Below are positions 19,470 to 44,494 of a stretch of 60,024 nt of DNA, in pieces; positions within the stretch are counted from its first letter, which is position 1; each line of letters starts with the position of its first letter. This stretch comes from Oxalobacteraceae bacterium (GTDB lineage Bacteria > Pseudomonadota > Gammaproteobacteria > Burkholderiales > Burkholderiaceae_D), in the NCBI GenBank assembly GCA_027490255.1, contig JAIXYM010000155.1, positions 1-60,024 on the forward strand. Reading direction: 5' to 3'. The notes beneath the pieces are model-generated. The model saw only the letters and a program-made list of their open reading frames with translations, ran no database searches and was not told the DNA's origin. The position numbers and the translations under genes are program-made.

Positions 19470-20683
19470 CTAATGGCCTCACTGATTTTGCAATTAATTG
19501 ACTGCACTTTTTCTTCGCGCCCATACTGCGTCCATGCACCCGGGATAATCCCAAGTGAGGGAAAATCTTGCGATACTGATTCTATAGAATGCAGCTCTTC
19601 TGAGGAAAAATTTACATGACGACGCTGATGTTCGATGCCAAAAATAGTATACCTTGATGGGAGTGGCAGCTGATCAAAAACTGACTTCACATCCATTAGT
19701 GTTTTTTCATCGCTATCGCCTGCAAAGGCCTCTACTGAGAAGCACGAACGACCCTCCAGTTCGTAAACATAGACTCTTGTAACCGAGATATCCACATCAA
19801 AAATCTGCCAGTAATAAGGAACGACAGGCAGCGACGTGCTGAATTCGCCGACGATCAACTTCATCGGAATAGATGGAGTGGTCAGCTTCACATTGAAAAT
19901 ACGGCTTAGTAAAGGTATTGGGTTTGCTGTCCAAACTACCTTGTCAAACTTCAGTCTCTCTCCTCGAGAGGTGAGAGAAACGACGTCCTCGCTACGCTGC
20001 AACTTTACGGGTGTATCGGTGTTTACACTAACACCTATGTTGATCAGCGTCTCCTTAAGATTGGCGAAAAATTTATTAAATCCTTTATTTGGCAGAAAGG
20101 CTGTCTCTATCGAACTTTCCGGAATTCGCAGCCTACGCGGTAGGGCGAGTAGCTCATCGGCTAAGGGGTCTTTGTTCTTCTTTTCATCAAGACATGGATC
20201 TTCTGCAAAGTAAACACGTGAAAGCTGCATGGGTACAAGGCAGCGGTAATCAAGCTGGTTTAAGCTTCCGAAGCGCGATGCCCAGCGGATTAGATCTGCT
20301 GAACGCGAGCCGTAAGCAAGCAAGCGCTCCCATGCGGATTGGTTTACAACAGGATTATTTGAAAGTACTGCTTCACCATCTAATACAGGCTGTGCACAAT
20401 CGTCAACGAGGCGCGCGTGCTTATTACCCAATCGGGTGAGTGATCCATAATGATGGTCGAATTGAATCAAATGTTCTGAAAAACTGACATCCTCGAAATC
20501 ATATGCTTGGTTTCTCAAATACTGGCAAGCATTGAAAAAATTTTTTCCCTCAAAAACAACATCGCGTAATACGCCACCTAATTCACTTTCAACTTCGTAA
20601 AGACTTACTTGTGCGCCGAGTGTGTGCGCATGAAAGGCTGCCATGCAGCCCGTGTAACCGCCGCCTATTACAGCAACTTTCAC
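19466..20683 (-). CDS. FAD-dependent oxidoreductase of the protoporphyrinogen/amine oxidase type
   Basis: The 405-residue protein starts with MKVAVIGGGYTGCMAAFHAHT, a GxGxxG dinucleotide fold, and continues SLYEVESELGGVLRD, the usual second FAD contact. VVWTANPIPLLSR resembles the middle of the NAD(P)-binding-8/amine oxidase superfamily (also UDP-galactopyranose-mutase-like and desaturase-like proteins). It overlaps both neighbours by four bases. Redox modification of the nonulosonate or of a linked sugar is inferred from context. The substrate cannot be read from sequence. Confidence 0.75.
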   Translation of the reverse strand: MKVAVIGGGYTGCMAAFHAHTLGAQVSLYEVESELGGVLRDVVFEGKNFFNACQYLRNQAYDFEDVSFSEHLIQFDHHYGSLTRLGNKHARLVDDCAQPVLDGEAVLSNNPVVNQSAWERLLAYGSRSADLIRWASRFGSLNQLDYRCLVPMQLSRVYFAEDPCLDEKKNKDPLADELLALPRRLRIPESSIETAFLPNKGFNKFFANLKETLINIGVSVNTDTPVKLQRSEDVVSLTSRGERLKFDKVVWTANPIPLLSRIFNVKLTTPSIPMKLIVGEFSTSLPVVPYYWQIFDVDISVTRVYVYELEGRSCFSVEAFAGDSDEKTLMDVKSVFDQLPLPSRYTIFGIEHQRRHVNFSSEELHSIESVSQDFPSLGIIPGAWTQYGREEKVQSINCKISEAIR

Positions 20684-21288
20684 TTTCCGCCCCGGTAGGC
20701 ATAAACGGTAAAATCGAAAGGAATGACGCCAGTTTTTACCTCGTAGTCATTACGAAGGGAAACATAAGGTGTAATTTCTTTCTTAAGAAAACTAAAAACA
20801 TTCTCAGGGTATTCGTAGAAAAGACCGGGATCCTGATAGTCAACGTAGGCACTCATCATATTGAATGACAGACCTATACGGGTCATTTCAAAGAGTTTTT
20901 TTAATGTTGACTGATAAAATTCTCGATTATTTATTATAAGATTATTAAAAACTCCGGAAACAAAAACGTAGTCAAAATTCTTGCCTTCAAAATCATCAAT
21001 TTTCCCAAAACTTTGAGCAGGATACTTGCCTTGACAAAGCTCAATGAACTCGTCAACAATTTCGACGCCATGATAGCTCACTGTAATTCCTTGGGTCTGA
21101 AGATAAGCATATAGTTGTCCAGTGCCACACCCAAAATCAAGTATAGACTTACCGTTCAGATCGCCGACTTCCACCAAGAATTTGAAGCGTCTTTCTTGTG
21201 ACTCTCGCGAGGCATATTGAACGGCTTCAGCACTGTCGCCATGCTGGATGAAAAGATTTTTATAATGCGATTGAAGATCTTCAATCAT
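20680..21288 (-). CDS. Class I SAM-dependent methyltransferase
   Basis: In this 202-residue protein, KSILDFGCGTGQLYAYL (about residues 47-63) is motif I and YHGVEIVDEF motif II, followed by FDYVFVSGVFNN. It starts within the end of pseG (8-base overlap). Its small size and placement suggest methylation of the nonulosonate or its precursor. It lacks GNAT features, so it is not a pseH. Coding A+T is higher than in pseC or pseB, which may reflect transfer of part of the cluster. Confidence 0.8.
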   Translation of the reverse strand: MIEDLQSHYKNLFIQHGDSAEAVQYASRESQERRFKFLVEVGDLNGKSILDFGCGTGQLYAYLQTQGITVSYHGVEIVDEFIELCQGKYPAQSFGKIDDFEGKNFDYVFVSGVFNNLIINNREFYQSTLKKLFEMTRIGLSFNMMSAYVDYQDPGLFYEYPENVFSFLKKEITPYVSLRNDYEVKTGVIPFDFTVYAYRGGK

Positions 21289-22276
21289 ACAGAGCCTCTA
21301 AATATTCAATCACCCGTGCTGTGCCATTTCGTAGGCTGACATTCAAAGGTGTGGGTTTCAGTTTTTTCAATCGATCTATTGAAGTCTTCAACTGCTCTGG
21401 CTTATCAAGATCAATCTCATTGAATGAGACTGCATTGCCCTTGTTCTCAAGTGCAAGGGCAACTTCCCGCTGAATTGGCGTGTTATAAATGATCAGCGTG
21501 GGTGTGCCTACCAGTGCGAGTTCGTAGGCAATGAACCCACATTGGACAACAGCGTATTCGACGCTGCGACACAGTGGCGCTGTGTCAGGTAAATCAGTAT
21601 GTAATATGCAGTCATTCTGACTGGAGAGCCTAGCAATCTCATTAGCTGCTATCCGGTAAGCGGATGTCGTTAACAAATGTAATGGCCGGGCTATGCTGGT
21701 TGTGTCGAGCCGATCCTTCAAGTTTATTAATACGGCACTACGATCGCCGCCACCGAGAAAAACCATGGTTCCTGAGCGGATTTCAGGGTGGTGGTGATAA
21801 AAACTTTCACGGGCAAGCAGATAGTCCAGTCCCAGCAAAATTTTACAGTGCGATGGCACAAGATCTGTATAGTTATTTTGTATAGCGTTCGATATGTTCT
21901 GATCTAAAAGTAAGTCGCAATCATGTCGGCGATTGCCCAGATCATCAATCACCATTATGTGATTTACATACGATCTAGCTCGCTTCTCAAATTCAAAGTC
22001 AAGCGAATAGCTGTCAATAATGAGGCAGTCAATGGTCAATTTTTCCGCAATAACTTTTATCTCATGCAGGCCTTCGCTTTGGCTATCTGTAATCTCGTGA
22101 AAAACATGATCATCTAGTAAAGCAGCATGAGAAAAAGGTAATGGATGGCTTAAAATATGCGTTCTATGGCCGCGAAGACGCAACTGCCGTGCCAGCATCA
22201 ATGAGCGAACTAAGTGTCCGTTGCCTATACTTGCATTGGCATCGAATCTGAAAAGAAAGCTCATATTCTTTTGCAT
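21281..22276 (-). CDS. pseG: UDP-2,4-diacetamido-2,4,6-trideoxy-beta-L-altropyranose hydrolase
   Basis: PseG removes UDP from the activated sugar before condensation by PseI. The 331-residue protein shows the signature FRFDANASIGNGHLVRSLMLA, then DCLIIDSYSLD, MVIDDLGNR and LLLDQN, all conserved in PseG, plus a GT28-like C-terminal half with FIAYELALVGTPTLI. The ATG at 22276 is used here; a second ATG four codons on is equally close to the motif. It lies 6 bases after pseF. Confidence 0.92.
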   Translation of the reverse strand: MQKNMSFLFRFDANASIGNGHLVRSLMLARQLRLRGHRTHILSHPLPFSHAALLDDHVFHEITDSQSEGLHEIKVIAEKLTIDCLIIDSYSLDFEFEKRARSYVNHIMVIDDLGNRRHDCDLLLDQNISNAIQNNYTDLVPSHCKILLGLDYLLARESFYHHHPEIRSGTMVFLGGGDRSAVLINLKDRLDTTSIARPLHLLTTSAYRIAANEIARLSSQNDCILHTDLPDTAPLCRSVEYAVVQCGFIAYELALVGTPTLIIYNTPIQREVALALENKGNAVSFNEIDLDKPEQLKTSIDRLKKLKPTPLNVSLRNGTARVIEYLEALYD

Positions 22277-22282
22277 AACTGC

Positions 22283-22987
22283 TCAGGAATCAGTCTCAGA
22301 TTGGAAGCGTAGGGAATGTTTCATTTCGGCTATTTCCCAATCACTGAAGTTATCAATGTCGTGACACTGGCTTTCAGCGAGTTCAATACTGCCTGTGCGA
22401 CCGCCAATAATTGAACCTGTCTTCAAGAGAATCGTGCTACGAACGATGTAAAACTGGCCGGCATCGTGATAAGCAACAGGCAGATCCTGAGATCTGCTTT
22501 GCGTATGTTCTGGCCAGATGAATGTCGTTTCCCCCTCGGTCGATCTTTGCAGAGAGCGCCAGATTGGATATGCAAAACGCACTACTGGAAAAACTGTATC
22601 AAAATTCTCATTCTTCAGTTTTTCAAACGCCGTCCAAAGCATTGCTGAATCGATGAAGGCAGCGCTCCCATAGATGCAGCATAGATAATCCGGGAGGCGA
22701 TCTTCTTGTTGAAGTCTATGTGCGCATTCCAGTAGGGCTTCAGATGTCGTTGCCGTATCGGAGGCAGTCGTATCTTTGCGTAGTCCAGCATGTTCTGCAC
22801 CCAGTGAAGCTGCCAAAGCAGCGATATCTTCTGAGTCTGTGCTGATTAGCACTCGATCAAACTGACCCCAAGCTAAGGCCGCACGCGTAGGCCAGGCGAG
22901 CAAAGGTTTACCACGGAAGCTCCGGGTATTCTTGTGTGGTATTCGTTTGCTTCCGGCCCGAGCAAGAATGATTGCGGTGACACTCAT
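22283..22987 (-). CDS. pseF: Pseudaminic acid cytidylyltransferase
   Basis: PseF makes CMP-pseudaminic acid, the donor for flagellin glycosylation. The 234 residues begin with the CMP-NeuA-type nucleotide loop AIILARAGSKRIPHKN and have LISTDSEDIAALA, KDTTASDTATTSEAL and DLPVAYHDAGQFYIV, as in PseF. The usual length is 230-240. The start overlaps the upstream methyltransferase by four bases. Confidence 0.93.
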   Translation of the reverse strand: MSVTAIILARAGSKRIPHKNTRSFRGKPLLAWPTRAALAWGQFDRVLISTDSEDIAALAASLGAEHAGLRKDTTASDTATTSEALLECAHRLQQEDRLPDYLCCIYGSAAFIDSAMLWTAFEKLKNENFDTVFPVVRFAYPIWRSLQRSTEGETTFIWPEHTQSRSQDLPVAYHDAGQFYIVRSTILLKTGSIIGGRTGSIELAESQCHDIDNFSDWEIAEMKHSLRFQSETDS

Positions 22988-24033
22988 TTTTTCTTGAATA
23001 ACAAAAGCTCTGAGTGGAAGCCATCGACCGTTTCGAATCCAAATGGATGTACATTAGTCTCGACTAGTTCATAGCCATCCAGCATCGCAATATAGTCAGC
23101 GCTCTTGATGGGCGTCTTTACCCCAGTTGAAGTAGCGGTTAGTTTCTGTTTTCCCTCGCGCATATTTCTCAGGAGAACCCATTTTGTGTCGAGTCGCTTT
23201 ACATGCTGTAAATAATTTTTTACGACTTCAGGTTCCATTTCTTGGAACGAGATAAAGTTCACGAATAAGTCGACTTTGAGCTGTAAATTTTCAATCTGCC
23301 ACGAGCAGAGAACGGAAGTTTTCTTAAGCTGCCCAATTCCGATGTCTTCAAATTGCGCCGTATCATTGAAGCCAGATACATTTTCTGGACCCAGGGCAGC
23401 TGCTAGATAGCGTTCTGCGACAAACTGAGTAGGCGGGATGTCAATATCAATATATCTGAGATGTGTAATTCCGGACTGGGCTAGGATCTCGCCGAGTGTG
23501 CCGAATCCACCGCCGACCTCCAGAACTGTTTTGATTTCATCGTTGCCTAAGTACTTTTTCAGCAGGGTCAAACCGAGCAGGTAATTCAGCGATGAACGAC
23601 TGTAGCGCTTTCCATCGAATTCAAATTGCTCGACAGGATGGCCGAATTGACTTTCTGAAAACTGATGAATGTAAGGTATCTGTCTAGGATTGTCTGCGGC
23701 CAGCATGACCCGATAATCAGCCAACGCTGATTGGTAACCGTCAAGATACTGATTCAAAGCAAGCTGGGATTTCTTTTGTTCTGGAAATTCATTTGCGACC
23801 ACTTCCTTGAGGCGATTGACCTGCGCGGGTGTGAAGCCACTGGTGGGTGAGCCATAGTTAGGTACAAAATAACCCATAGGTGTGGGTAGTCGCCTGAAAT
23901 TCTCAACACCCCCCGATTCTATTTCCTCCGAAATTTGTTCCGAGGCGTGCGCCCAGAATGAGGTCGGCCTGTAGAGGTGTGACTTCATTTGCATATTGGC
24001 GTGAGCAGTACGCAGGTCAGGATAGATAGGCAT
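22984..24033 (-). CDS. Putative sugar O-methyltransferase
   Basis: The protein has 349 residues from the ATG at 24033, chosen because AAGGA lies eight bases before it; the frame is open 57 bases further. Motif I is TVLEVGGGFGTLGEILAQ and motif II LRYIDIDIPPTQFVAERYL. The overall layout, with SFWAHASEQISEE near the N-terminus, fits the putative sugar O-methyltransferase family seen in surface-glycan clusters. It is embedded between pseC and pseF with overlaps on both sides, which suggests an O-methylated pseudaminic acid derivative, an inference. Confidence 0.8.
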   Translation of the reverse strand: MPIYPDLRTAHANMQMKSHLYRPTSFWAHASEQISEEIESGGVENFRRLPTPMGYFVPNYGSPTSGFTPAQVNRLKEVVANEFPEQKKSQLALNQYLDGYQSALADYRVMLAADNPRQIPYIHQFSESQFGHPVEQFEFDGKRYSRSSLNYLLGLTLLKKYLGNDEIKTVLEVGGGFGTLGEILAQSGITHLRYIDIDIPPTQFVAERYLAAALGPENVSGFNDTAQFEDIGIGQLKKTSVLCSWQIENLQLKVDLFVNFISFQEMEPEVVKNYLQHVKRLDTKWVLLRNMREGKQKLTATSTGVKTPIKSADYIAMLDGYELVETNVHPFGFETVDGFHSELLLFKKK

Positions 24034-25234
24034 CGTGATAATCCTTGGAAACAGAGGGCTCGCAGAGTATGCTGCGCAAACACGTGGCAACGCTCACTAA
24101 ATCAGCATCATTCATTGAGGGAAAAAGAGGAAGACTTAAATTTTTGTTTGCGTAAGATTCAGCCATGGGAAAGTCACCTGACTTGAATCCGAGCTCACGA
24201 TAATAAGGCTGCAAATGTACGGGCGTGTAGTGTACGTTTACACCAATGTCTTGTTCGCGTAGATTTTCAAAAAGCTCGCGCCGGCTAAATTTTGTACGAT
24301 CTTCGTCTATCAAGATTACATATAAATGAAAGCTTGATAGTGAATCAGGGCTGCTTTTAGCAGGTAGTATTAGAGGTAGGTCACATAGTAGATCTGAGTA
24401 CATCTGTGCAAGCTGATTTCGTCTTGCGACAAATGTGTCCAGACGCTGTATTTGCGATAACCCCAAGGCTGCCTGCAAATCTGTCATTCGATAATTGAAT
24501 CCGAGAAGGTGTTGCTCGTAGTGCCAGGCGCCTTGATCGGAATGGATAAATTCTGTTTTTTCGCGAGTGATGCCGTGGCTACGTAGTAGTTTCATACGAT
24601 TGGCCAGCTCTGTACTATTGGTCGTCGCCATCCCACCTTCAGCCGTCGTGATGATTTTCACCGGATGAAAACTGAATATGCTGATGTCACTGTACTGGCA
24701 ATGACCTATTGGCTGATGCTGATAGTGCCCGCCTATAGCGTGTGATGCATCTTCGATAATCTTGAATCCATATTTCAAGCTGAGCTTATGAATTTCTTCC
24801 ATATCGCAGGACCTACCTGCGAAATGTACGGCGATCAGTAGTTTCGGCAAGCGCCCCTTGGCTTTTGCATTCGTTAGTTTCTCCGCAAGAGCGTCGATGC
24901 TAAGGTTATAAGTTGCCGGATCAATATCGACAAAATCTACGTCCGCGCCACAGTATCTTGCGCAGTTTGCACTAGCGACAAAGGTGTTTGGAGTTGTCCA
25001 GACGAGATCGCCTTTGCCTATGCCTAGCGCGAGACAGGCAATATGCAAAGCCGAGGTGGCACTATTTACGGCAACTGCATGCTTGGCATCGCAATATTCA
25101 GCGACTGCGCGCTCAAAAGCAGGAACGGCTGGGCCTTGGGTCAGCCAGTCACTACGCAATACTTCTACGACTGCAGCGATATCTTCTTCGCTGACATCTT
25201 GACGGCCGTAGGGTATGTGATGTCGTCTGCTCAT
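24017..25234 (-). CDS. pseC: UDP-4-amino-4,6-dideoxy-N-acetyl-beta-L-altrosamine transaminase
   Basis: This PLP-dependent aminotransferase performs the second pseudaminic acid step. Conserved DegT/DnrJ/EryC1 elements are HAVAVNSATSALHIA, TTPNTFVASANCARY, DFVDIDPATYN, IEDASHAIGG and the PLP lysine in SFHPVKIITTAEGG. IPYGRQDVSEEDI at the N-terminus is typical of PseC. The length of 405 residues is slightly long for the family. It overlaps pseB by four bases. Confidence 0.94.
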   Translation of the reverse strand: MSRRHHIPYGRQDVSEEDIAAVVEVLRSDWLTQGPAVPAFERAVAEYCDAKHAVAVNSATSALHIACLALGIGKGDLVWTTPNTFVASANCARYCGADVDFVDIDPATYNLSIDALAEKLTNAKAKGRLPKLLIAVHFAGRSCDMEEIHKLSLKYGFKIIEDASHAIGGHYQHQPIGHCQYSDISIFSFHPVKIITTAEGGMATTNSTELANRMKLLRSHGITREKTEFIHSDQGAWHYEQHLLGFNYRMTDLQAALGLSQIQRLDTFVARRNQLAQMYSDLLCDLPLILPAKSSPDSLSSFHLYVILIDEDRTKFSRRELFENLREQDIGVNVHYTPVHLQPYYRELGFKSGDFPMAESYANKNLSLPLFPSMNDADLVSVATCLRSILCEPSVSKDYHDAYLS

Positions 25235-26274
25235 GCTGGCGAAAATGCCGGATCTATATGGTCGCGTATTAGGTTGCGAATCTGCTCAACGTTCAAAAAA
25301 TCGGGATTACTTCCTGAGTTATAAGAAAATTTTGGATCAACAACTGCTGCGGACTGTTTTTCTAAATATCGATCGATACTCATTGAAGCGTTTGCTGGAA
25401 GGATTGCAAAGTACTGACCCAAATCGACTGTGTTTGGGCTATCACTTGTAGTGATCATTTCTTCATGCAATTTTTCGCCAGGTCTTGCACCGATTATTTT
25501 GTGCGTGCAATTCGGCCCCACTGCTTCGGCGACATCCGATATGCGATATGAAGGAATTTTTGGTACAAAAATTTCACCACCCAACGCATGCTCGAGGGCC
25601 CAAAGAACCATCTCCACACCATCTTCGAGTGATATGTTGAACCGAGTCATGTTTGGATCTGTGATCGGTAGAAGACCGCTCTTTGCCTTTTGTAGAAAGA
25701 ATGGAATCACTGAACCGCGCGAGCCCATGACATTGCCGTATCTGACTACGGAGAAGCGTAGATCGCGCTCACCTCGGAAATTGTTTCCAGCGACGAAGAG
25801 CTTATCGCTGCACAACTTGGTGGCGCCATAAAGATTGATCGGAGCAGCCGCTTTGTCTGTCGACAGCGCCACCACACGTTTGATGCCCATGTCCATGCAG
25901 GCTTCAATCAGATTCTGGGCACCCATGATGTTGGTCTTGATGAATTCGAAGGGGTTGTACTCGGCAGCCGGGACTTGCTTCAGTGCGGCAGCGTGAACCA
26001 CGGTGTCGATACCTTCGAGAGCGCGGCGAAGTCTGCGCTCATCGCGCACATCGCCAATAAAAAATCGCAACGCTGGGTATTGGTCTACAGGGAATTCCTG
26101 CTGCATCTCGAACTGTTTAAGTTCGTCACGGCTGAATACAACTAGTCGCTTGACCTTCGGGCAATGATCAAGAACGGCACGGACAAAAGCCTTGCCAAAT
26201 GATCCGGTGCCGCCCGTGATCAATATCGATCGGTCGCAGATATCCCGGTTTTGATGTTTTGTTCGCATGTCCAT
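25231..26274 (-). CDS. pseB: UDP-N-acetylglucosamine 4,6-dehydratase (inverting)
   Basis: First enzyme of the pathway: it dehydrates and C5-epimerises UDP-GlcNAc. The SDR Rossmann motif is ILITGGTGSFGKAF. The catalytic region has HAAALKQVPAAEYNPFE and STDKAAAPINLYGATK, with the modified active-site triad of PseB/FlaA1. Possible starts are the TTG at 26289 and ATGs at 26274 and 26268. None has a strong ribosome binding site, so 26274 is a tentative choice. It opens the nine-gene operon. Confidence 0.94.
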   Translation of the reverse strand: MDMRTKHQNRDICDRSILITGGTGSFGKAFVRAVLDHCPKVKRLVVFSRDELKQFEMQQEFPVDQYPALRFFIGDVRDERRLRRALEGIDTVVHAAALKQVPAAEYNPFEFIKTNIMGAQNLIEACMDMGIKRVVALSTDKAAAPINLYGATKLCSDKLFVAGNNFRGERDLRFSVVRYGNVMGSRGSVIPFFLQKAKSGLLPITDPNMTRFNISLEDGVEMVLWALEHALGGEIFVPKIPSYRISDVAEAVGPNCTHKIIGARPGEKLHEEMITTSDSPNTVDLGQYFAILPANASMSIDRYLEKQSAAVVDPKFSYNSGSNPDFLNVEQIRNLIRDHIDPAFSPA

Positions 26275-26434
26275 TTTTCGACAACCCAAGTTGGTTTGCG
26301 AACATGCTTAGCAGAAAGTGTGCCTGATATGGTTTTTCTCTCAAGGTGCTGTTTTTTCTTGAATTTCATGTGGCGGTTAATTCTTTTTTTGTCCAGGTCC
26401 TGCGTGGCATAGAGAGGGAAAATATTGGCCGCCA

Positions 26435-27361: not shown

Positions 27362-30300
27362 ATGGCAGTTATCAATACAAACACCAAAGCACTTTTTTCG
27401 CAGTCAGCGCTGAAGCGGACCGAAGGAAGCATGTCGAAGGCAATGGAGCAGCTGTCCACGGGCAAGCGAATTAACAGCGCCAGTGACGACGCGGCTGGCA
27501 TGGCGATCGCTACGAGAATGTCACATCAGATTCGTAGTCTGAACCAGGCGGTTCGTAATGCGGGTGACGCCATCAATCTGATTCAGACTGCAGAAGGTGC
27601 GACCAACGAAATTACGGACATGATGATCCGTATGCGTGAGCTCGCCATTCAGGCAGTCAACGACACCAACGCCAATGAACAGCGAAGCTATCTTGACTTG
27701 GAATTCCAGCAACTCAAGCAGGAAATTGTCAGGATCGCCGATGTCACCGAATGGAACGGTTTCCCCGTGCTCAACGGCACGGCAGGTGAGCGGGTAGGTG
27801 AGATGCCGGTGTTTAAGGCGACTTCGGTAAGCCAGTTTGGCAGTGTGCTGATTAACCCCACGACCGTTCGAACATTAGCGGGTACAGATGAGGGCGATGG
27901 GGTTGGTGAGGTTCAGGAAGTTGTCTTTGCGGGCACGCCATCAACCGCTACATCGACGGGATTTATTACCATTGCAGGCGTCGAAATCAATGTGACTGCA
28001 GATGATTTTGATGACGGTGATTTGTCCTCGTATCTTACTTTTATCGCAGAAAAGCTTAGTGAAGACGATCAGTTTTCGGTGGATTCCGGTCGTACTGTGG
28101 AGTTCGACGGTACGGATACCTTAACGTTTACCTATACAGCGAGCGATGGTGATGTCGATAAAATTGCTGTCTACCCGCCTAGCGATCTGACTTATACGAA
28201 TGCAGATACGCCTTACCGCAATGCGATTACCAACGCAAAAGAGACTTTTACCAATAGCGGAAATTTCCTTAAAAGCGGCTCCTTGACTATCCAATACCCT
28301 GGATCGGGCGATGTTGCAACCGCGACATTCATTGCGGAGTCGGGTGAAGAAATTACCATGACAGGCGTGCTGGATACCGTGAATGGCACAATTTCTTTTA
28401 GTGATGAAGATGATTTCAATGCGAGCGTTTTATCGGGTTCCCTGACCTACACGTTTAGAAATTCCGACGGTGATGCGGAAGACATCAGCAGCCGGGCAGT
28501 CTCCTTATCGGTCAATGTCGCCGGCAGTATTCCCTCGTTACGTGCAGGTGACTTGCAAATCAATGGTATCGAGATTGGTGCATCCAGCGCTGATGATGAT
28601 CTGTTATCGCCGCCGAATAACGCCTCAGGCAGTGCAATAGCCAAAGCGGCTGCGATTAACCGTCGCGCACGTGATTCCGGAATCACTGCGGGTGAAACAC
28701 AAACCATTGCAATCTCCGGCACGCCTATCCCCGGTACCGTGGTCGTGGGGGGAGTTGCGGTTCAAATTACTTCAGCGGAAAGTACCTCAGTACTAGCGAC
28801 TGCCAAGATTGCCGCAACGCTTAACGCGAGTACTGCTTTTGGCGCTGAGTCAGGCCGTAGCGTTAGATATGCACCAGGCAGCACTACGCTAGTCATTGAC
28901 TTTGCAGCGAACGAGGGCGATGTCGCAAAGCTGACGATGTCGCCCGGGTCGACCGGACTTACGAGCCTGGTCGAAACGACGCGTACCCATTCAACCATGC
29001 TTCCTGGTACCGGCGTTTATGCCAAAGTCAATGAGAACGTATTGACTGGCCGCTCAATGTCTGCGGAGTCTGTTGCGAGTGGTACCGTATTTATTAACGG
29101 ATTTGCCAGTGCGGACATCACGACCACATTGAACAATACTCGCCAGACCCGATCTAGTGTTGTCGCAGCAATTAATGCGATCACTGATCGTACAGGCGTA
29201 AAGGCGATTGATACAGGATTTGATTCTCAGGGCATTACGCTTCTGGCAACCGATGGTCGTAACATTGAAGTGCGCTTCGAAACGGATTCGAATTCAAACA
29301 CTTTCGGGCAGCGTATCGGATTACGCGAAGGGGTTCAGAGTAGTACGGTGTCGCTGGAATCGCGCGTACAGGCACCCGTTGTTCTGACATCATCGGCCAC
29401 TGGTGACATCACGCGAGCGGGATTGATAGAGGGTAATTTCACCAAAAACCAATCGGTATTCAATACAGATACGCGCGCTCCGGTGATCATGCCTCAGGCT
29501 CAGGTTGAAGCAATCACCATTGATGACGGTGCTTTGGTTGATGGAGAAATATTTACCGCAACGATTAACGGTTATACCTTCGAAGTGGAGGTGGATGCAC
29601 CAGCTGTAGAAACTGCACAAGATATTCGGGATGCTCTTGTAGAGGCTATTAATCTGAAAGCAGATGTGATGGGCGTGACTGCCTCGGCTGGGCGCAGCAT
29701 CAGTGAATTAACCCTAACAGCCAATACAGCCGGAACCCCATTTACCTATTCGGTTGAAACCGATAGCGTTGATGCCACCATGCCAACGCAAACGATTGCC
29801 AAAAATGTACCGGCAAATTTCAAGCCATTGAATGCGGGCGACCTGGTTATTAACGGCATCAAAATTCGCGCCACTTCCTCAGCAGATGATACCGTTTCGA
29901 ACAGTGTGGCTGCTAGCAGTGACTCCAGCTCAAGTGCAATCGCTCTGGCTGCTGCGATCAATTCACACAGCTCGGAGACGGGTGTTCGAGCCCAGGCAAA
30001 CCCCGTGGTAAGCAAGGGTTTGAGTACGTACACAGCGTATCCGGATTCAGGAACATACAGCTTGTTCGTCAACGGCACGACGATTGAGGTTGACTTTAAA
30101 AAAGGCGAGACGGGATCTGAACGTAGAGCCAAGGTTATTGATGCCATCAATGAGCGTGTTGGTCAACATGGCGTGACCGCGAGTGATAATGGCAATGGTG
30201 TAACACTTGAGTCTGATGGCCGTAACGTCTCGGTCTGGTTTGATGGTGGCGTGAAAGATCTTACTGCCGCCAGCTTTGGACTTGAAAAAGGTGGTTCTGT

Positions 30301-31384
30301 AGAACAGGTGTCGCGTATTGTTTTGGGTGCTGATGCTGCCGCTTCTGATACCGCGACTGTGGTGATTAATGGCGTTACGATTACATCGGATGCCGATGTT
30401 GGTACTGCGAATGGTGCGGATCTTGCGTCGGCCCTGTTCCAGAAAATTCAGGAAAAAATTGATGCCGGCGAGATCAGAAATGTCGAAGTCAGTTATGACA
30501 GTGGTACGACCATCACGATCACCTCAACGATTGCAGGTACGCCTTTCAGTCTGACCGGGGCGGCAGTTGATTCAGATGACGCCACACTCAAGCTTGAATC
30601 CGTCACTGCAAACAGTGTGGGCGACAACGACGTAATTGGTCTGAGAGCTGCCAAAGATTCCGATGATAATGGTGCCCCTGTTTACGTGAGTAACAAGGCA
30701 CTTGGTGCAAAGACCCTGTATGGCACCGTACGCATGATCTCTGATCCAGCACTGCTGCCTATCGGGCTGCCATCGCCGATCGGTGCACCACCTTCGGATC
30801 AAGAGGCTTTGGTGCGAGCCAACGGCAAACCATTCACGGTGTCTGCTGGCGTCAAGGGATTTGGGGACGATAGCAATTTCGCTTCACTGGGATTCCAGGC
30901 AGGTACTTTTGGCGGTCGCGCCAGTACTGACCTCGATCCACCGCGCGTGGGTCGACTGGCCTTCCAGGTAGGTTCAGGTTCCAACCAGATGATCACGATT
31001 GACCTTGCAGATTTCGGTAAAGGTGGTCCGATCACAGGTGAGATTACAGGCGATGTCGATCTTAATGTTGAGCAAAGACGTACACGCATCAATACGCGTG
31101 AAGGCGCATCGTCGGTGTTGGCACTACTCGATACCGCCATGGATAAGGTCAATGCGACCCGGGCGACGATGGGTGCGGTAATGAACCGACTCGAGCACAC
31201 GATCAATAATCTTTCGAACGTGTCGACGAACTTGTCCGCCTCCCGCAGTCAGATTGAAGACGCCGACTATGCGGCAGCATCAACTGAAATGGCCAAGACC
31301 CAAATCATGCAACAGGCAGCAACCTCAGTGCTCGCACAAGCGAACATGAGCCAGCAAACCGTACTCAAACTCCTGGGCGGCTGA
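27362..31384 (+). CDS. Giant flagellin
   Basis: The 1340 residues start with a canonical flagellin D0/D1 (MAVINTNTKALFSQSALKR, EQLSTGKRINSASDDAAGMA, QTAEGATNEITDMMIRMREL) and end with the matching C-terminal helices (ASRSQIEDADYAAASTEMAK to VLKLLGG). Between them lie about 1100 residues of repeated surface modules: RAGDLQINGIEIGA near residue 390 and NAGDLVINGIKIRA near 823 are hook-IN-type elements, with several VTIxGVxxxxT units. Flagellins above 1000 residues are known but uncommon and form thick filaments in some marine gammaproteobacteria. A sigma-54 promoter, not sigma-28, precedes it. Glycosylation is likely from context. Confidence 0.93.
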   Translation: MAVINTNTKALFSQSALKRTEGSMSKAMEQLSTGKRINSASDDAAGMAIATRMSHQIRSLNQAVRNAGDAINLIQTAEGATNEITDMMIRMRELAIQAVNDTNANEQRSYLDLEFQQLKQEIVRIADVTEWNGFPVLNGTAGERVGEMPVFKATSVSQFGSVLINPTTVRTLAGTDEGDGVGEVQEVVFAGTPSTATSTGFITIAGVEINVTADDFDDGDLSSYLTFIAEKLSEDDQFSVDSGRTVEFDGTDTLTFTYTASDGDVDKIAVYPPSDLTYTNADTPYRNAITNAKETFTNSGNFLKSGSLTIQYPGSGDVATATFIAESGEEITMTGVLDTVNGTISFSDEDDFNASVLSGSLTYTFRNSDGDAEDISSRAVSLSVNVAGSIPSLRAGDLQINGIEIGASSADDDLLSPPNNASGSAIAKAAAINRRARDSGITAGETQTIAISGTPIPGTVVVGGVAVQITSAESTSVLATAKIAATLNASTAFGAESGRSVRYAPGSTTLVIDFAANEGDVAKLTMSPGSTGLTSLVETTRTHSTMLPGTGVYAKVNENVLTGRSMSAESVASGTVFINGFASADITTTLNNTRQTRSSVVAAINAITDRTGVKAIDTGFDSQGITLLATDGRNIEVRFETDSNSNTFGQRIGLREGVQSSTVSLESRVQAPVVLTSSATGDITRAGLIEGNFTKNQSVFNTDTRAPVIMPQAQVEAITIDDGALVDGEIFTATINGYTFEVEVDAPAVETAQDIRDALVEAINLKADVMGVTASAGRSISELTLTANTAGTPFTYSVETDSVDATMPTQTIAKNVPANFKPLNAGDLVINGIKIRATSSADDTVSNSVAASSDSSSSAIALAAAINSHSSETGVRAQANPVVSKGLSTYTAYPDSGTYSLFVNGTTIEVDFKKGETGSERRAKVIDAINERVGQHGVTASDNGNGVTLESDGRNVSVWFDGGVKDLTAASFGLEKGGSVEQVSRIVLGADAAASDTATVVINGVTITSDADVGTANGADLASALFQKIQEKIDAGEIRNVEVSYDSGTTITITSTIAGTPFSLTGAAVDSDDATLKLESVTANSVGDNDVIGLRAAKDSDDNGAPVYVSNKALGAKTLYGTVRMISDPALLPIGLPSPIGAPPSDQEALVRANGKPFTVSAGVKGFGDDSNFASLGFQAGTFGGRASTDLDPPRVGRLAFQVGSGSNQMITIDLADFGKGGPITGEITGDVDLNVEQRRTRINTREGASSVLALLDTAMDKVNATRATMGAVMNRLEHTINNLSNVSTNLSASRSQIEDADYAAASTEMAKTQIMQQAATSVLAQANMSQQTVLKLLGG

Positions 31385-32675: not shown

Positions 32676-33164
32676 TCATTCGTCCGCTGGCTTGATCCTG
32701 AGCATCAAGGTCATTGGGTTTACTGGCGATGACTTGAATCCGTAGTACTCATAGAACTCTCTTGCGTGCTCGTTCAGAGCGTGTACCAGCATTGCTCTAA
32801 CTCCCGCATTAGAAGATATCCCAACAGAGCGACGCATTGCGTCTTGTAGCAGTGAGGCACCAAGTTTCATGCCTTGTGCGCGAGTGTCAACTGCCAGACG
32901 CGCCAGAATCATCACCGGTATGGGGTCTGGCATGTTCTGTCGAATGGCACGGGTGGCATCTTGCTGCGTCACCGCGCCCGCGGCCAGCGCGTAATACCCA
33001 ACTACCTGTTGCTCACCATCCGTAACGACAAAGGTTCGGCTGGCACCGTTGGATTGATTGGCGAGAGCGCGGCGTTTTAGCCAATCATCCAGAATGGATT
33101 CACCGCAGGAAAATAAATCGACGTGGTGCTCGGGTGCCAGAGGCACAGGCGCTTGGAGGTTCAT
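32676..33164 (-). CDS. GNAT-family toxin (TacT/AtaT-like acetyltransferase)
   Basis: The 162-residue GNAT protein has the acetyl-CoA loop LARLAVDTRAQGMKLGASLL and the strand-helix ending LVHALNEHAREFYEYYGF. DLFSCGESILDDWLKRRA near the N-terminus is typical of GNAT toxins that acetylate aminoacyl-tRNA and block translation. The partner DUF1778 gene overlaps its start by four bases, the standard arrangement of this toxin-antitoxin type. I chose the start at 33164; the frame is open 15 bases further. Confidence 0.85.
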   Translation of the reverse strand: MNLQAPVPLAPEHHVDLFSCGESILDDWLKRRALANQSNGASRTFVVTDGEQQVVGYYALAAGAVTQQDATRAIRQNMPDPIPVMILARLAVDTRAQGMKLGASLLQDAMRRSVGISSNAGVRAMLVHALNEHAREFYEYYGFKSSPVNPMTLMLRIKPADE

Positions 33165-33430
33165 GCACCCTTGTCCCAAGGCGCCTTCACTGCCAATAAT
33201 CGCTCCAGGCCCGGATTGGGTTCTGGCGGCGCATCCAGCAAGGCTTGGAATTGCTGCAGCTTTGCTTCGTCCAAGTTAAAAAACACCTGATCCAGCAGCA
33301 CTGACTGCGCCTTGTCGCAGGCAGCTTCAAGCATGAAATCGGAGCGGTTCTTGCCGAGCAGCTGAGCGGCCTGATCGATCAGTTCACGCTGCTGAGGCAG
33401 GGCTCGTAGGTTGATGGGGGCATCGCGCAT
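33161..33430 (-). CDS. DUF1778 antitoxin
   Basis: The 89-residue protein is a ribbon-helix-helix type antitoxin: INLRALPQQRELIDQAAQLLGKNRSDFMLEAACDKAQ is the DNA-binding half, and the C-terminal QALLDAPPEPNPGLERLL is the toxin-binding tail of TacA/AtaR relatives. The ATG at 33430 has GGAA six bases before it; an in-frame ATG 24 bases upstream is also possible. It precedes the GNAT toxin in one operon and likely represses the promoter at 33466-33494. Confidence 0.85.
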   Translation of the reverse strand: MRDAPINLRALPQQRELIDQAAQLLGKNRSDFMLEAACDKAQSVLLDQVFFNLDEAKLQQFQALLDAPPEPNPGLERLLAVKAPWDKGA

Positions 33431-33465
33431 AGGAATTTCCAAGTAGATGTACAAGAGATATACGA

Positions 33466-35976: not shown

Positions 35977-36054
35977 ATGATCAAGCAGAAAACCAAGCAG
36001 AAAACTAAGCATAAAACCAAGCAGATGACTGAACAGAGAGTGAATCATGGCTGA
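35977..36054 (+). other. Tandem 12-base repeat and 25-codon open frame before fliF
   Basis: Three 12-base units (AAAACCAAGCAG, AAAACTAAGCAT, AAAACCAAGCAG) lie at 35989-36024. A frame starting at the ATG at 35977 reads MIKQKTKQKTKHKTKQ and ends at 36054, eight bases inside fliF. It could be a translated leader coupling to fliF or chance. No ribosome binding site is evident for it. Confidence 0.35.
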
Positions 36055-38065
36055 AGCGACAATGAACCCTGGCGGTATGCCGCCGCAACTGCCACCGGCG
36101 AACCCTAACGGCGCCGCTGATGGTGCTGCAGCGGCACTACCCATCGCGACATCCGGCATGCCGGCACCAGGTACGCAATTGCCTGAAGCCTTGCGTGGCG
36201 TGAACAGTGGCGTCTCCGCCTTCCGCGACTGGATTGATGGCGTACTCAAACAGCCTAGCGTTCGTCGCGCCCTGATTCCGCTGATGATTCTGCTGGTTTT
36301 GGTGATTGCTGCAATGTCGTTCCAGTTCAGCCAGAGCACACCTTATCGTCCGATCATGCCCGGCATGACAGAAAACGATAAGCAGGCCGCGATCGAAGCC
36401 CTTAAGGCAGGCGATTTCAAACCTAAAGTCGATACCAGCAGTGGACAGATTACCGTGCCCGAATCACGTTATCACGAAGCGCGTATTTTTCTGGCGGGAC
36501 AGGGTATTCCGAAAGAGGCGCAGCCTATCGGTATGGAGTCACTGAAAGACAAATCATCCATGACCACCAGTCAGTTCATGGAGCAGGTACAGTACAACAC
36601 TGCGATCGAGCAAGAGCTCGCGCGCAGCATCATGCAGATTTCTACCATCAAGGCAGCGCGCGTTCACTTGGCGCTGCCCAAGCAGAGCGTTTTTGTGCGT
36701 GAGCGCGCAACACCGAAAGCCTCGGTGGTGGTAACACCTCACAGCGGCCGTGGCGTATCAACGCCTCAGGTAAAAGCGATCGTCCATCTGGTGTCATCCA
36801 GCGTGCCTTATCTCACACCGCAGAATGTTTCCGTGGTCGATGATCAGGGCAATCTCATGACCGAAGAAAACCAGGTTGACGCCGCGATGGGACTGACTAT
36901 GGCCCAAATGGCGCACAAGCAGCGTACAGAAGAAACCTACCGCAATCGCGTGACAGAATTACTGGGACCCGTCGTTGGTGAGGCTTCTGTGCAGGCACAA
37001 GTTAATCTGACACTCGATTACACCCAAGTCGAAACCACGACTGAGGATTTTGATGATAAAGACAAAGGCGTGAAGCCGCGTTCCGAAGCACTGACCACCG
37101 AGCGCAAATTCAAGCTTGATCCAGAAGGTATTCCTGGTGCGATGAGTAACTCGCCACCGCCCGATGCTGACCTGACGAAAAACACTAACACTGACGAGCA
37201 GAAGCCTGCCACGAACGAAACCGTGACCACCAAGTCAACACGTAATTTTGAAATGGACCGCTCGGTGCGTCACGTAAAAAATTCACTGGGTAATATCTCG
37301 CGTGTGACGGTTGCTGTGGTCGTGGCCGAGCGTCCTGCACCACCACCAGCCGATGGTAAGCCTCCGGCACCTGGTGCGCCGACCACGATTCCTTATACAG
37401 CGCAGGAACTGGACCGCATGCTCAATCTGGTTCGCAGTGCAGTGGGTTACAGCGAAGCTCGGGGTGACGTGGTCACAGTGGCGCCAGCACGTTTCGAAAC
37501 GCTGGCACCTGAGCCACCCAAGCCCTGGTATGAAAATGGCGATATCCAGAATTTCATTAAAATCGGTTTGGCAGCGCTCGTGATCATTGTCTTCATGTTG
37601 GCTGTGGTACGCCCTATGGTCAAAGGACCAACGATCAATCAGATCATGCCGCCTGTGCTGACACCGACTGTCGAAGAAATCAGAGCGCTGGAACAAGCCA
37701 AGGCCGCCGAAGAAGCCCAGATCGCGGCCGAAGCGAAAGCTGCTGCCGACCAGTTGGCTGCCGAAGAAGCGGCTGCAGTTCTGGCTGCCGAGGAAGAGGC
37801 TGCTGCACTGGCTGCCGCAGAAGCAGAAGCAGCGGCAGAAGCCGAGAGCCAGTTGGCCGAGGGCGAGATCGAGATGCAGGAGGGCGAATCGCTGGATGAG
37901 CTCAAAGCACGGATGCAGGCCATGAAGCCGAAGAAACCGACCTTCACCGCCGATATGCTCGACACCGCCAACAGCTATGATGACAAAGTCGCGTTGATCC
38001 GGATGTTGGTATCTCAGGAATCTGGTCGTGTGGCGCTGGTATTGAAAAACATGGTCAGGTCTTAA
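36047..38065 (+). CDS. fliF: Flagellar MS-ring protein FliF
   Basis: The 672-residue membrane ring protein is somewhat longer than the usual 530-580. The first membrane helix is near residues 78-95 (PLMILLVLVIAAMSF) and the second near 505-523 (GLAALVIIVFMLAVV). The periplasmic ring-building motifs include TSQFMEQVQYNTAIEQELARSI and KASVVVTPHSG. After the second helix comes a 70-residue Ala/Glu coiled-coil-like linker, which explains the extra length, then the FliG-binding tail (ADMLDTANSYDDKVALIRML, ending NMVRS). That tail is duplicated in the next gene. fliF is flanked by fliE and an unusual extra gene. Confidence 0.94.
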   Translation: MAEATMNPGGMPPQLPPANPNGAADGAAAALPIATSGMPAPGTQLPEALRGVNSGVSAFRDWIDGVLKQPSVRRALIPLMILLVLVIAAMSFQFSQSTPYRPIMPGMTENDKQAAIEALKAGDFKPKVDTSSGQITVPESRYHEARIFLAGQGIPKEAQPIGMESLKDKSSMTTSQFMEQVQYNTAIEQELARSIMQISTIKAARVHLALPKQSVFVRERATPKASVVVTPHSGRGVSTPQVKAIVHLVSSSVPYLTPQNVSVVDDQGNLMTEENQVDAAMGLTMAQMAHKQRTEETYRNRVTELLGPVVGEASVQAQVNLTLDYTQVETTTEDFDDKDKGVKPRSEALTTERKFKLDPEGIPGAMSNSPPPDADLTKNTNTDEQKPATNETVTTKSTRNFEMDRSVRHVKNSLGNISRVTVAVVVAERPAPPPADGKPPAPGAPTTIPYTAQELDRMLNLVRSAVGYSEARGDVVTVAPARFETLAPEPPKPWYENGDIQNFIKIGLAALVIIVFMLAVVRPMVKGPTINQIMPPVLTPTVEEIRALEQAKAAEEAQIAAEAKAAADQLAAEEAAAVLAAEEEAAALAAAEAEAAAEAESQLAEGEIEMQEGESLDELKARMQAMKPKKPTFTADMLDTANSYDDKVALIRMLVSQESGRVALVLKNMVRS

Positions 38066-38098: not shown

Positions 38099-38773
38099 AT
38101 GGCAGAAGCAAAAAAACCTGAGGCTCCACGGCCGGCATCGGCGGCGGTAAAGACCACCGCTGCTGTTCCCGCCAAGGCCGCAGCGGTACCCGCGAAAGCA
38201 GCACCTGTCGCTGCAAAGACAGCGGCAGTCCCTGCCAAGACCGCCGCAGTACCAGCACGCGTGGGCGGTGTACCTGCAAAAACTGCTGGCGTACCTGCAA
38301 AGACAGCAACGACTGGCGCGCTCGTGCCGGCTAAAACCGCAGCGATACCCGCCAAGACAGGCGCAGTCCCCGCAAAAACTGCCGCAGCACCGGCGAAACC
38401 AGCCCTGGCAGCCAAGACGACGACGGCGGGCGCCTCGGTTGTTGCGACCAAAGATATCGCGACGAAGGGTTCTGTCTCCACAGATCCAGCGAAGCCCGCG
38501 ACGACCGAATCTGCAACGGCAGGCGATAAAGACAAGCCTGGTTCGCCAGACGCTGTAAGTGCCGAAGATGAGGGTCAAAACTTCGAGGAAATGAGAAACA
38601 AATTCAAGCCTGCCAAGAAGCCTGTGGCGGTGCCGGCAGAATTACTGGGCGATGCAAAAAGTTATGATGACAAGCTGATTCTGGTGAAATTGCTGACTGA
38701 AAAAGAGCAGAGCCGGGTGGTTCTGATGATCAAGAACATGCTGCGCTCTTCGGGCGCAGAAAAGAAAAGATAA
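38099..38773 (+). CDS. Lys/Ala/Pro-repeat protein ending in a FliF-like FliG-binding tail
   Basis: This 224-residue protein stands between fliF and fliG. Residues about 10-110 are low-complexity repeats of the type AVPAKTA, strongly basic and reminiscent of histone-H1-like tails. Residues about 110-170 are a mixed linker. The last 45 (PAELLGDAKSYDDKLILVKL, ending IKNMLRSSGAEKKR) align without gaps to the FliF C-terminal tail at about 50 percent identity over 38 residues by eye, including SYDDK, RV and KNM-RS. In FliF this segment binds the N-terminal domain of FliG. It has no membrane segment or signal peptide. The role is not known; competition with, or bridging to, FliG is inferred. GGAAAC repeats before the ATG provide the ribosome site. 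Confidence 0.85.
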   Translation: MAEAKKPEAPRPASAAVKTTAAVPAKAAAVPAKAAPVAAKTAAVPAKTAAVPARVGGVPAKTAGVPAKTATTGALVPAKTAAIPAKTGAVPAKTAAAPAKPALAAKTTTAGASVVATKDIATKGSVSTDPAKPATTESATAGDKDKPGSPDAVSAEDEGQNFEEMRNKFKPAKKPVAVPAELLGDAKSYDDKLILVKLLTEKEQSRVVLMIKNMLRSSGAEKKR

Positions 38774-38785
38774 ATTGTAACCACC

Positions 38786-38817
38786 GAGGTTACGACAGAG
38801 GTTACGACAGAGGTTAT
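38786..38817 (+). repeat. Tandem 12-base repeat carrying ribosome-site sequence before fliG
   Basis: GAGGTTACGACA occurs twice in tandem (38786-38797, 38798-38809), with a partial third unit, GAGGTTAT. Each contains GAGG, so the fliG ATG at 38820 has up to three Shine-Dalgarno-like sites; the nearest is at 38810. Confidence 0.7.
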
Positions 38818-38819
38818 TT

Positions 38820-39872
38820 ATGGCAGATCCAAAAACTCCCGCGGAAGCGACCATTTCCGAGGAACTCAAGCGAGAACTCGCCGAGCTGACCAACACCCAG
38901 CGCGCTGCTGTGCTGATGTTGTTGCTGGGTGAAGATCTGGCATCGAACATCATCAGTTACCTCGATCCCAAAGAGGTGCAGGAACTGGGTGCGGCGATGG
39001 TGTCGGTGGCTGACATGTCACAAGAGGCTGTGAATGCCGTGCTAGATCAGTTTGTCGACATGCTGAAAAAACAAACCAGCTTGTCATTGGGTACCACCGA
39101 CTATGTCGAGACGGTACTCAAACGTGCGCTGGGTCCTGACAAGGCATCATCTGTGCTATCTCGCATCATGCCCAATCGCGCCAGTCGCGGACTGGAGATT
39201 TTGCAATGGATGGATGCGCGTGGCATTGCTGAGATGATTCGCGGCGAACACCCGCAGGTAACGGCAATCATTCTGTCTGTGCTCGAGTCTGAGGTGGCGG
39301 CTGACGTGCTGGCTTTCTTGCCTGAAGAGGTGCGTCCGGAAGTAGTGCAGCGTGTGGCTAGCTTGGATACCGTTCAGCCGTCGGCGATGGAGGAACTTGA
39401 AACCATCATGAAGGCACAGTTCTCTAACAATGCGTCTTCATCCTCATCAAGCTTCGGTGGCGTCAAGGCAGCGGCGAAGATCATGAACTTCACCAAGGTG
39501 GAGCTCGAGTCGACGATCATGCAGGGCGTGGGGCAGATTGATGAAGAACTCGCGCTGCGTATTCAAGACAACATGTTCAGCTTTGATAATCTGGCAGGCG
39601 TGGACAACCGTGGTATTCAGGCGCTCATGCGTGCGGTCGAGCCAGATATGCTCATGGTTGCGCTGAAAGGTGCAACGGATGATGTTAAGAACAAATTCCT
39701 CGACAATATGTCCAGCCGGGCACGCGGTATGTTTATCGACGATATGGAATCCAAAGGTCCTCTGCGTATGACCGAAGTCGAAGACGCGCAGAAGAAAGTT
39801 ATGCGTAAAGCACGAACGCTTTCCGAGAAGGGCGAGCTGATCCTGGCCTCAGGTGGAGCCGATTTTGTCTGA
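38820..39872 (+). CDS. fliG: Flagellar motor switch protein FliG
   Basis: FliG couples the MS ring to the C ring and receives torque from the stators. The 350-residue protein has an N-terminal FliF-binding domain (LTNTQRAAVLMLLLGEDLA), the EHPQ motif in RGEHPQVTAIILSVLE, and the C-terminal charged helix (LKGATDDVKNKFLDNMSSRARGMFIDDM). The length is slightly above the usual 330-340, with an extra N-terminal 15 residues. A Ser-rich linker (SSSSSSFGG) precedes the middle armadillo helices. fliH overlaps its end. Confidence 0.96.
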   Translation: MADPKTPAEATISEELKRELAELTNTQRAAVLMLLLGEDLASNIISYLDPKEVQELGAAMVSVADMSQEAVNAVLDQFVDMLKKQTSLSLGTTDYVETVLKRALGPDKASSVLSRIMPNRASRGLEILQWMDARGIAEMIRGEHPQVTAIILSVLESEVAADVLAFLPEEVRPEVVQRVASLDTVQPSAMEELETIMKAQFSNNASSSSSSFGGVKAAAKIMNFTKVELESTIMQGVGQIDEELALRIQDNMFSFDNLAGVDNRGIQALMRAVEPDMLMVALKGATDDVKNKFLDNMSSRARGMFIDDMESKGPLRMTEVEDAQKKVMRKARTLSEKGELILASGGADFV

Positions 39873-43068: not shown

Positions 43069-43289
43069 TCAGGTAAAGAGAAAGTCTGCCGCCGTCAGCT
43101 CGGTGACACCAATGACCGTAATGGTGTTGGATCCGAAGGTGATGACGGTATTCGTATTTTGTTGACTTAGGTTGGACCCTGTAATCAGCGCATCGAAACT
43201 GGCACCGCCGATGCCCTTCAATTCGATCTTGTCTTCGCCTTGGCGGAAGTCATGAATCGTATCGGCTCCGTTATTGGCAGAAAAAAAAA
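43069..43289 (-). pseudogene. Out-of-frame C-terminal part of RTX-like protein
   Basis: This region continues the adjacent RTX-like gene in another frame: SANNGADTIHDFRQGEDKIELKGIGG, then ITVIGVTELTAADFLF, the usual C-terminal module of RTX proteins secreted by type I systems. Loss of one T of the ten in the run joins it to the upstream part as GQDVFFSANNG, the normal motif for the family. I list it as the disabled end of one gene, not a separate gene. Confidence 0.75.
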
Positions 43290-44233
43290 ACATCTTGGCC
43301 AGTTGCGACGCGGGTGAGGTCAATGGTTGAGCTTCCCAAGCGAGAGGCCGCAATATCCCCCCACATTGCATCGTTACCCGTGCCGCTTATCAGGCGGTCA
43401 TTTCCGCAAATGACATTACCGGCAACGTAGTATTCGGCGTCACCATAAAGTGAATTTTGCGTTACAAACGCGCCAGAGATTGGGTTGTCGCTTGCTGCAA
43501 GAATGTCATTGCCGCCCCGGCTGTCAGACATTCCATAAGCATCGCCGAATAAGACGTTAAAATTGGAGCCTGCTCCACCAATCAACACATCATTGCCGCC
43601 TTGGCCGCCAGAAATTGAATAGGCATCACCATAAAGGGTGTTTGACCAAGAGCTGCCTCCTCCTGTTAACGCATCATTGCCGCCTTGGCCGCCACGCATT
43701 ACATAGGCATCACCGTATAGAAGGTTTTCGTAGGATAAGGCGCCTCCAATCAGTAGATCATTACCGCCCTTGCTACTAGACATTGAATAGGCATCGCCGT
43801 AGAGATTGTTTAAGCTGGAGTTAACACCACCGATCAGCAAATCATTACCGCCCCGGCTGTTGTCAAACATGTCGCCCGCATCCCCGTACAGATAGTTTTT
43901 GGCGCTGTTATCGCCCCCTTTTACCGCGTCATTGCCACCCCGACTATCGGTCATAGTTTCCGCGTCGCCGTAAAGGAAACTATTGCGGTTTTCTTTTCCT
44001 CCAATCAGCACATCATTGCCACCCCGACTAGCGGTCATAGTTTCCGCATCACCGTAAAGGACATTATTGAAGTTGCCTTTCCCTCCAAACAGCACATCAT
44101 TGCCACCTCGACTATCGGTCATAGTTTCTGCATCGCCGTAGATAGTATTTTTTTCTCCATCAATGCCAACCAGAATTTGTCCTCTGGCCTTTGCTTCGAG
44201 CGTTCCTGCCGTGTCTCCATAGATTGTAGCCAT
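43271..44233 (-). CDS. RTX-like calcium-binding repeat protein, frame broken at poly-T
   Basis: From the ATG at 44233 (GAGGGAATTGAC before it) the frame gives 320 residues. Eight or more repeats of 28 residues (YGDAETMTDSRGGNDVLFGG type) carry the GGND core of RTX calcium-binding proteins. At the end the protein reads VATGQDVFFFCQ and stops, because of a run of ten T on the coding strand (43281-43290). Nine T would restore a 387-residue protein with a proper RTX C-terminal domain. Phase variation or a sequencing error in the run are the alternatives. Type I secretion genes are not in the window. It stands next to the end of the fli operon in opposite orientation. Confidence 0.8.
   Translation of the reverse strand: MATIYGDTAGTLEAKARGQILVGIDGEKNTIYGDAETMTDSRGGNDVLFGGKGNFNNVLYGDAETMTASRGGNDVLIGGKENRNSFLYGDAETMTDSRGGNDAVKGGDNSAKNYLYGDAGDMFDNSRGGNDLLIGGVNSSLNNLYGDAYSMSSSKGGNDLLIGGALSYENLLYGDAYVMRGGQGGNDALTGGGSSWSNTLYGDAYSISGGQGGNDVLIGGAGSNFNVLFGDAYGMSDSRGGNDILAASDNPISGAFVTQNSLYGDAEYYVAGNVICGNDRLISGTGNDAMWGDIAASRLGSSTIDLTRVATGQDVFFFCQ
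43281..43290. repeat. Homopolymer A10 (T10 on coding strand)
   Basis: Ten consecutive A on the plus strand fall exactly at the frame break of the RTX-like gene. This length is prone to slippage by one base. Confidence 0.9.
43500..44180 (-). repeat. 84-base tandem repeats in RTX-like gene
   Basis: The GGND codon block recurs at 43506, 43590, 43674, 43758, 43842, 43929, 44013 and 44097: spacing is 84 bases, once 87. The three units nearest the start share long identical stretches, so they were duplicated recently. Confidence 0.85.
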
Positions 44234-44494
44234 GTCAATTCCCTCATCAGAGTATTCAGAGGAGAGCAATTTCTTCTCTGACAGCCCGTGGCGTGCTGCA
44301 TATCTATGTTTGTCTGGAAGTTTCAGGGACGATTGACGTGCATCAAGCCGACGTCGTTAGCGACACTGGACTAGTACATTGGCGTCCCAACTCGTTGTTA
44401 ACAAGCGTTGTAACAAAACCAGTATCGTAACGATCCTGCGCAGCCTGCCGGGCAAACTTTCGCCGCCACGCAGTGCCTGATGAGTTGCGCTGTC

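Follow-up and report, generated by a model that had tools for sequence, protein, structure and literature searches.

A second copy of the FliF tail encoded as a separate protein between fliF and fliG in an Oxalobacteraceae bacterium, with counterparts in other Burkholderiales

How FliG copy number in the flagellar motor is matched to that of FliF, and how the width of the cytoplasmic (C) ring differs among species, is an open question. Unequal FliF:FliG counts have been discussed (PMC11087270; cited here, as are all papers below, from part of its text), as has a wider membrane/supramembrane (MS) ring as a template in Campylobacter (PMC12222027). The C-terminal tail of FliF is the FliG-binding part of the MS-ring protein, and tail and FliG N-domain are reported to pack as one armadillo unit (PMC6079021). 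In a 60,024-nucleotide stretch of an Oxalobacteraceae bacterium (assembly GCA_027490255.1, contig JAIXYM010000155.1; herein the window), an additional gene, which we call X, lies between fliF and fliG, all three on the plus strand. A preliminary description of the locus had proposed that X carries a duplicate of the FliG-binding tail, which raises the question of what such a tail does outside FliF. Pfam matches confirm the identities of fliF and fliG; the neighbors fliE, fliH, fliI, and fliJ are named from reading of their open reading frames (ORFs).

The duplication is confirmed by alignment. X (from residue 151) and the end of FliF (from residue 561) give a local alignment score of 123, whereas shuffled controls average 28 and peak at 56 (0 of 2,000 reach the score); chance similarity is thereby ruled out. 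The final 44 columns are free of gaps and hold 20 identities by hand count, in agreement with the gap-free end at about half identity described previously; SYDDK, RV, and KNM.RS are common to both tails, a KP.KK segment precedes them, and the match continues upstream across one single-residue gap to cover ~60 residues in all (EG..FEEM.....KP.KK). By domain content X is not FliF: the ring-building domains YscJ_FliF (PF01514) and YscJ_FliF_C (PF08345), both present in the FliF of the window, are not in X, and hmmscan found no Pfam family in it above cut-off (sole match PF19315, E 0.063, below its cut-off). The expected absence of a membrane helix is likewise borne out, in contrast to the two transmembrane helices of FliF, with a best 19-residue hydropathy of 1.04 (0.66–1.31 across 15 X proteins vs. 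1.87–2.95 in six of the membrane versions described below). X fits a proposed group of stand-alone FliF-tail proteins, defined as ORFs that bear a FliF-like tail, lack FliF domains, and occur alongside a FliF in the same genome. A cut-off FliF, frameshift, or assembly artefact is ruled out because the gene recurs in genomes assembled independently of one another and among metagenome proteins (23 matches in one search and 598 at E 0.01 in another, of which the best 120 were listed and 26 of these read).

To survey relatives we used the last 74 residues of X as query against 56 genomes (21 of the genus and 35 others). X occurs in 16 of the 21 genus genomes, the source genome counted, and the 35 others gave no X match; G010 yielded a 17th match, which covers the FliF tail alone. 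No fliF–fliG junction of this motor was found in any of the five genus genomes without X: G003 and G011 have no fliG match, G013 has a distant fliG only and a FliF with the ordinary tail, fliG in G018 is represented by a 26-residue end, and the FliF tail of G010 lies 123 bases from a contig end with no fliG match. In one X-bearing genome (G017) the contig begins inside X, and only the X–fliG side is visible. The 16-row alignment of X has 27 invariant columns, all of which except the start Met (that is, 26) fall in its C-terminal core.

The core has evolved under purifying selection. Across 13 pairs of X genes, the ratio of nonsynonymous to synonymous substitution rates (dN/dS) of the core is 0.05–0.20 in nine, 0 in one, and has saturated dS in three, and synonymous changes far exceed nonsynonymous ones in all 13; the FliF tail gives 0.005–0.04 in six of seven pairs (one saturated) and the repeat-bearing lead of X 0.15–0.24 in three pairs. 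The low ratio of the core indicates that X is a selected protein whose tail is somewhat freer to change than that of FliF and whose lead is free to vary. That X is a remnant without selected function, left when the fliF end was duplicated in tandem, is accordingly very improbable; the excess of synonymous changes, conservation across the genus, and recurrence in other lineages all weigh against it, and what speaks for it is an interrupted second-tail ORF in a genome of another family (G389) and the frame in G014, where a stop stands right behind the first ATG. The latter (L018, ~1460–1500) reads ATG, GAA, then stop, with no clear start, and may represent decay, an unusual start, or an assembly error.

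The remainder of X is far more variable. Lengths range from 58 to 238 aa in 15 measured ORFs (the 58 of G014, with its unclear start, is a minimum); 12 of these are 58–109 aa long and have zero [VIA]PA[KR] motifs, and three are 224–238 aa long with 6–10. The preliminary description had taken a basic AVPAKTA repeat to make up the rest of the protein, which holds for the X of the window (10 motifs) but not for the genus, where 12 of 15 lack it. We therefore reject the repeat as the functional part of X. The suggestion that it links FliG to DNA, membrane, or a pole is not supported, given this absence and given that tails in other lineages are borne by a membrane helix or lack any scaffold. A conserved tail with a variable repeat is the pattern that had been put forward as a sign of function, and it is what the genus displays.

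Sequence and prediction point to the FliF site on FliG as the place where X would dock. X is hydrophobic at 13 of the 14 positions that are hydrophobic in the FliF tail, and two low-confidence fused X–FliG models place the X tail on the FliG N-domain as one armadillo unit, a packing that persists in the model without any FliF row in the alignment. The first of these models was weak on its own (predicted local distance difference test score 55.8; Foldseek matches mainly to the FliG part), and its VIA alignment was informative; alignments A4 and A6 were set aside, distant FliG rows having been placed on X, and a tail profile searched against the sequences of solved structures gave no flagellar match. 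The two helices of the X tail are predicted to complete the armadillo fold of the FliG N-domain as the FliF tail does. Loss of the tail in relatives, or interface residues incompatible with FliG, had been named as findings that would speak against the proposal; with the tail conserved, 13 of 14 hydrophobic positions kept, and two models docking it, neither is seen at the level of sequence and prediction.

X shares with the FliF_C tail ~60 aligned residues, a hydrophobic pattern, and the same predicted packing on FliG_N, but it is a separate protein with neither a transmembrane helix nor ring-building domains, so that a docking module already known from FliF has become a component in its own right. 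It also differs from the FliF tail by consistent changes at positions 10 (R to K), 13 (V to T/S), 14 (to E), 15 (to K), and 21 (A to V/I). Engineered FliF–FliG fusions likewise join tail and FliG_N, and the tail works when covalently linked to FliG (PMC6079021); they contain whole FliF, however, whereas X is a natural, separate tail. The FliG-interaction domain of FlhF offers another case of a non-FliF protein binding FliG, as is predicted for X, but this N-terminal beta-rich domain binds the FliG middle and C domains with FliF binding still possible (PMC11236974), whereas X is helical and is predicted to use FliF's own site. X has no Pfam GTPase match, so it falls outside FlhF as recognized by TIGR03499 or an SRP-type GTPase. 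No separate FliF-tail protein is described in the open-licence PubMed Central literature searched, in keeping with the earlier statement that no component of this design was known.

One alternative is that X is a holding chaperone that fills the groove of an unstable FliG N-domain, keeping FliG folded and monomeric until the FliF tail displaces it during assembly; X would be made just ahead of FliG. X is a small, soluble protein whose gene immediately precedes fliG in 16 genomes, and it keeps the groove-facing hydrophobics while several exposed positions are consistently unlike FliF, as expected of a weaker binder; moreover, tagged FliG was reported to be stable in Escherichia coli only with FlhF (PMC11236974). 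Against a chaperone stand full-length FlhF-like ORFs, albeit below the family cut-off, that lie elsewhere in genomes of the genus, and FlhF as a missing partner was rejected on the same ground. Two genus genomes, G006 and G013 (the latter without X), have a second, distant fliG (42–43% identity) and an FlhF above the family cut-off.

Second tails are not confined to the genus, a recurrence that only comparison could reveal and that is absent from the preliminary description; it extends to another site within the operon. In Comamonadaceae, four loci read gene by gene (L067, L072, L074, and L079; FliH by Pfam in L067, other names by reading) have the order fliE-fliF-fliG-fliH-second tail-fliI-fliJ, and the second-tail ORF opens with a helix that aligns to the second transmembrane helix of FliF, VRPM motif included (score 48 against a shuffle maximum of 44 in L067 and 47 in L074; 0 of 500 each). 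Among 101 relatives of one Comamonadaceae genome, 52 match: 42 with a FliF match and a second, shorter ORF (164–326 aa open frame), nine with the second ORF only, and one (G490) with nothing but the end of FliF where a contig stops; placement behind fliH was read in part of the 52.

Across the order, matches to a 21-row profile built from X cores and related tails were found in 14 of 399 genomes (source genome included), two apiece in eight of them. Five genomes of family f17 encode FliF and, on a different contig, a 260–408 aa ORF with membrane helices and an X-like tail; G389, of the same family, has FliF and the interrupted ORF mentioned above, and in G363 only the membrane version was seen. 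Family f46 contributes a ~150-aa membrane-helix ORF with the tail located between fliF and fliG (G293; the score of the f46 helix alignment to FliF is reached by 2 of 500 shuffles), and f18 a 283-aa second-tail ORF near genes read as flhB, fliR, and fliP (G364). Genomes with the FliF tail only (G135, G264) or with a weak FliF-sized match only (G140, G276) argue against a fixed link of this tail class to a second copy. A 244-aa frame in G571 was rejected as a second tail, being a FliF cut by masked bases, and a class-wide search returned 12 genomes beyond the source, all of them with a single weak match, to a frame of FliF size or to a cut FliF. As a separate observation, the membrane-type genes of f17 and f18 (L099, L104, and others) adjoin small secreted Adhesin_E-type genes, away from fliF (PF16747 in both of those tested).

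The common FliF tail of the order differs (Y..NL..AK.LA.QDP..VANVVKEWV) and served as a control. An 18-row profile of it matched 101 of 150 genomes, once each save in G058 and G051, in FliF-sized frames of 507–662 aa and two shorter ones (214 and 373 aa). The additional match is a second FliF in G058 and, in G051, a 55-aa frame directly 3' of fliF that corresponds to a 49-aa gene between fliF and fliG. An equivalent 49-aa gene in G143 was missed by the profile, so the control undercounts; the proportions of synonymous and nonsynonymous differences in this f21 pair are 0.68 (pS) and 0.18 (pN) across the last 37 codons, a further point against a relic. In G249 the gene starts 8 bases 3' of fliF and overlaps the fliG start by 14 bases. 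It occurs in three of 10 f21 genomes, all among the seven of one genus, and another f21 genome read directly (G099) is without it. Family f21 hence provides a tail-only gene at the same junction in a motor with another FliF tail type, which also suits a chaperone.

Whether these copies had a single origin or several was addressed with a tree of 57 tails, which places X and the Comamonadaceae tails on one side of a branch with support 100/100 on 64 usable columns, with a bootstrap that had not settled; approximately unbiased (AU) tests do not reject X grouped with its own FliF tail (p 0.417), the Comamonadaceae second tails with their FliF (p 0.30), or all second copies together (p 0.179).

The scaffolds of second tails vary (none, one FliF-like helix, or several helices) while the tail is common to all, which suggests that what matters is not the lead but the occupation of FliG_N at the rotor. 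On balance we favor, with a confidence about evenly poised, the reading that X, a soluble protein ending in a diverged copy of the FliF tail, binds the FliG N-domain in FliF's place and so docks FliG subunits to which no FliF tail is bound. The chaperone is possible but clearly less probable, membrane helices in the X relatives of other families being ill suited to a cytosolic chaperone. Less probable again is a brake or regulator of assembly that competes with FliF for FliG, limiting C-ring number or timing, or hands FliG to a polar landmark: X does mimic the FliF tail while soluble, and its tail changes faster (dN/dS 0–0.20 vs. 0.005–0.04), but its gene adjoins fliF and fliG, no evidence of separate control was seen, and it has no conserved landmark-binding part, the lead differing among species.

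If X is an extra dock for FliG, the rotor would contain both the docking tail of FliF and a stand-alone kind, and the number of FliG in the C-ring need then not equal that of FliF in the MS-ring. Membrane versions would be positioned beside the second transmembrane helix of FliF; soluble X may be kept near the ring because it is basic (15 of 15) and the FliF linker before the tail strongly acidic (16 of 16). More tentatively, and with less confidence than in docking itself, we hypothesize that split-off docking tails arose several times in Burkholderiales and that such supernumerary tails, either soluble or carried on a FliF-like transmembrane helix, provide a second kind of FliG anchor that uncouples the size of the C-ring (and torque) from the MS-ring. 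A structural module, the co-folding tail, appears to have been copied away from its scaffold in several lineages, and a separate, genetically removable protein that seems to supply extra FliG docks would make the question of subunit matching directly testable.

Table 1. Coordinates of X and associated features in the window.
Feature	Position	Strand	Basis or remark
X (extra gene), 224 aa, ATG start	38099..38773	+	ORF list; proposed soluble stand-alone FliG-docking tail protein
fliF, 672 aa, from which the tail derives	36047..38065	+	PF01514 and PF08345 above cut-off
FliG-docking tail of FliF, last 59 aa	37886..38062	+	Alignment with X; published role of the FliF C-tail (PMC6079021)
fliG, proposed partner of X; N-domain ~ residues 22–123	38820..39872	+	Pfam
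Conserved core of X: acidic-to-basic lead-in (EEM.NKFKP.KK) and FliF-like tail	38549..38770	+	16-row alignment, dN/dS
SYDDK...KNMLRS, predicted two-helix FliG-docking segment of X	38660..38749	+	Hydrophobic positions; helices in both fold models
AVPAKTA-type basic low-complexity lead of X, species-specific	38099..38500	+	10 [VIA]PA[KR] motifs
12-bp tandem repeat GAGGTTACGACA, 2.6 copies, immediately 5' of fliG	38786..38816	+	Repeat scan

Every copy of the 12-bp repeat contains GAGG, which resembles a ribosome-binding site and may act as one. An Rfam scan of the window gave no match. Elsewhere in the window, with names given by reading, are a very large flagellin-like ORF of 1340 aa (27362–31384) and another of 644 aa (13949–15883), a gene run resembling nonulosonic acid (flagellin glycan) synthesis (17717–26289), and a minus-strand pair resembling a GNAT toxin and a DUF1778 antitoxin (32676–33454). 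A 1689-aa short-repeat protein (LTTAQIAALTSDQ-like; 7932–13001) lies between the fliD-like and flagellin-like genes, and a 332-aa ORF of GGND/YGDA repeats (43271–44269) contains an 84-bp DNA tandem repeat at 43929–44140.
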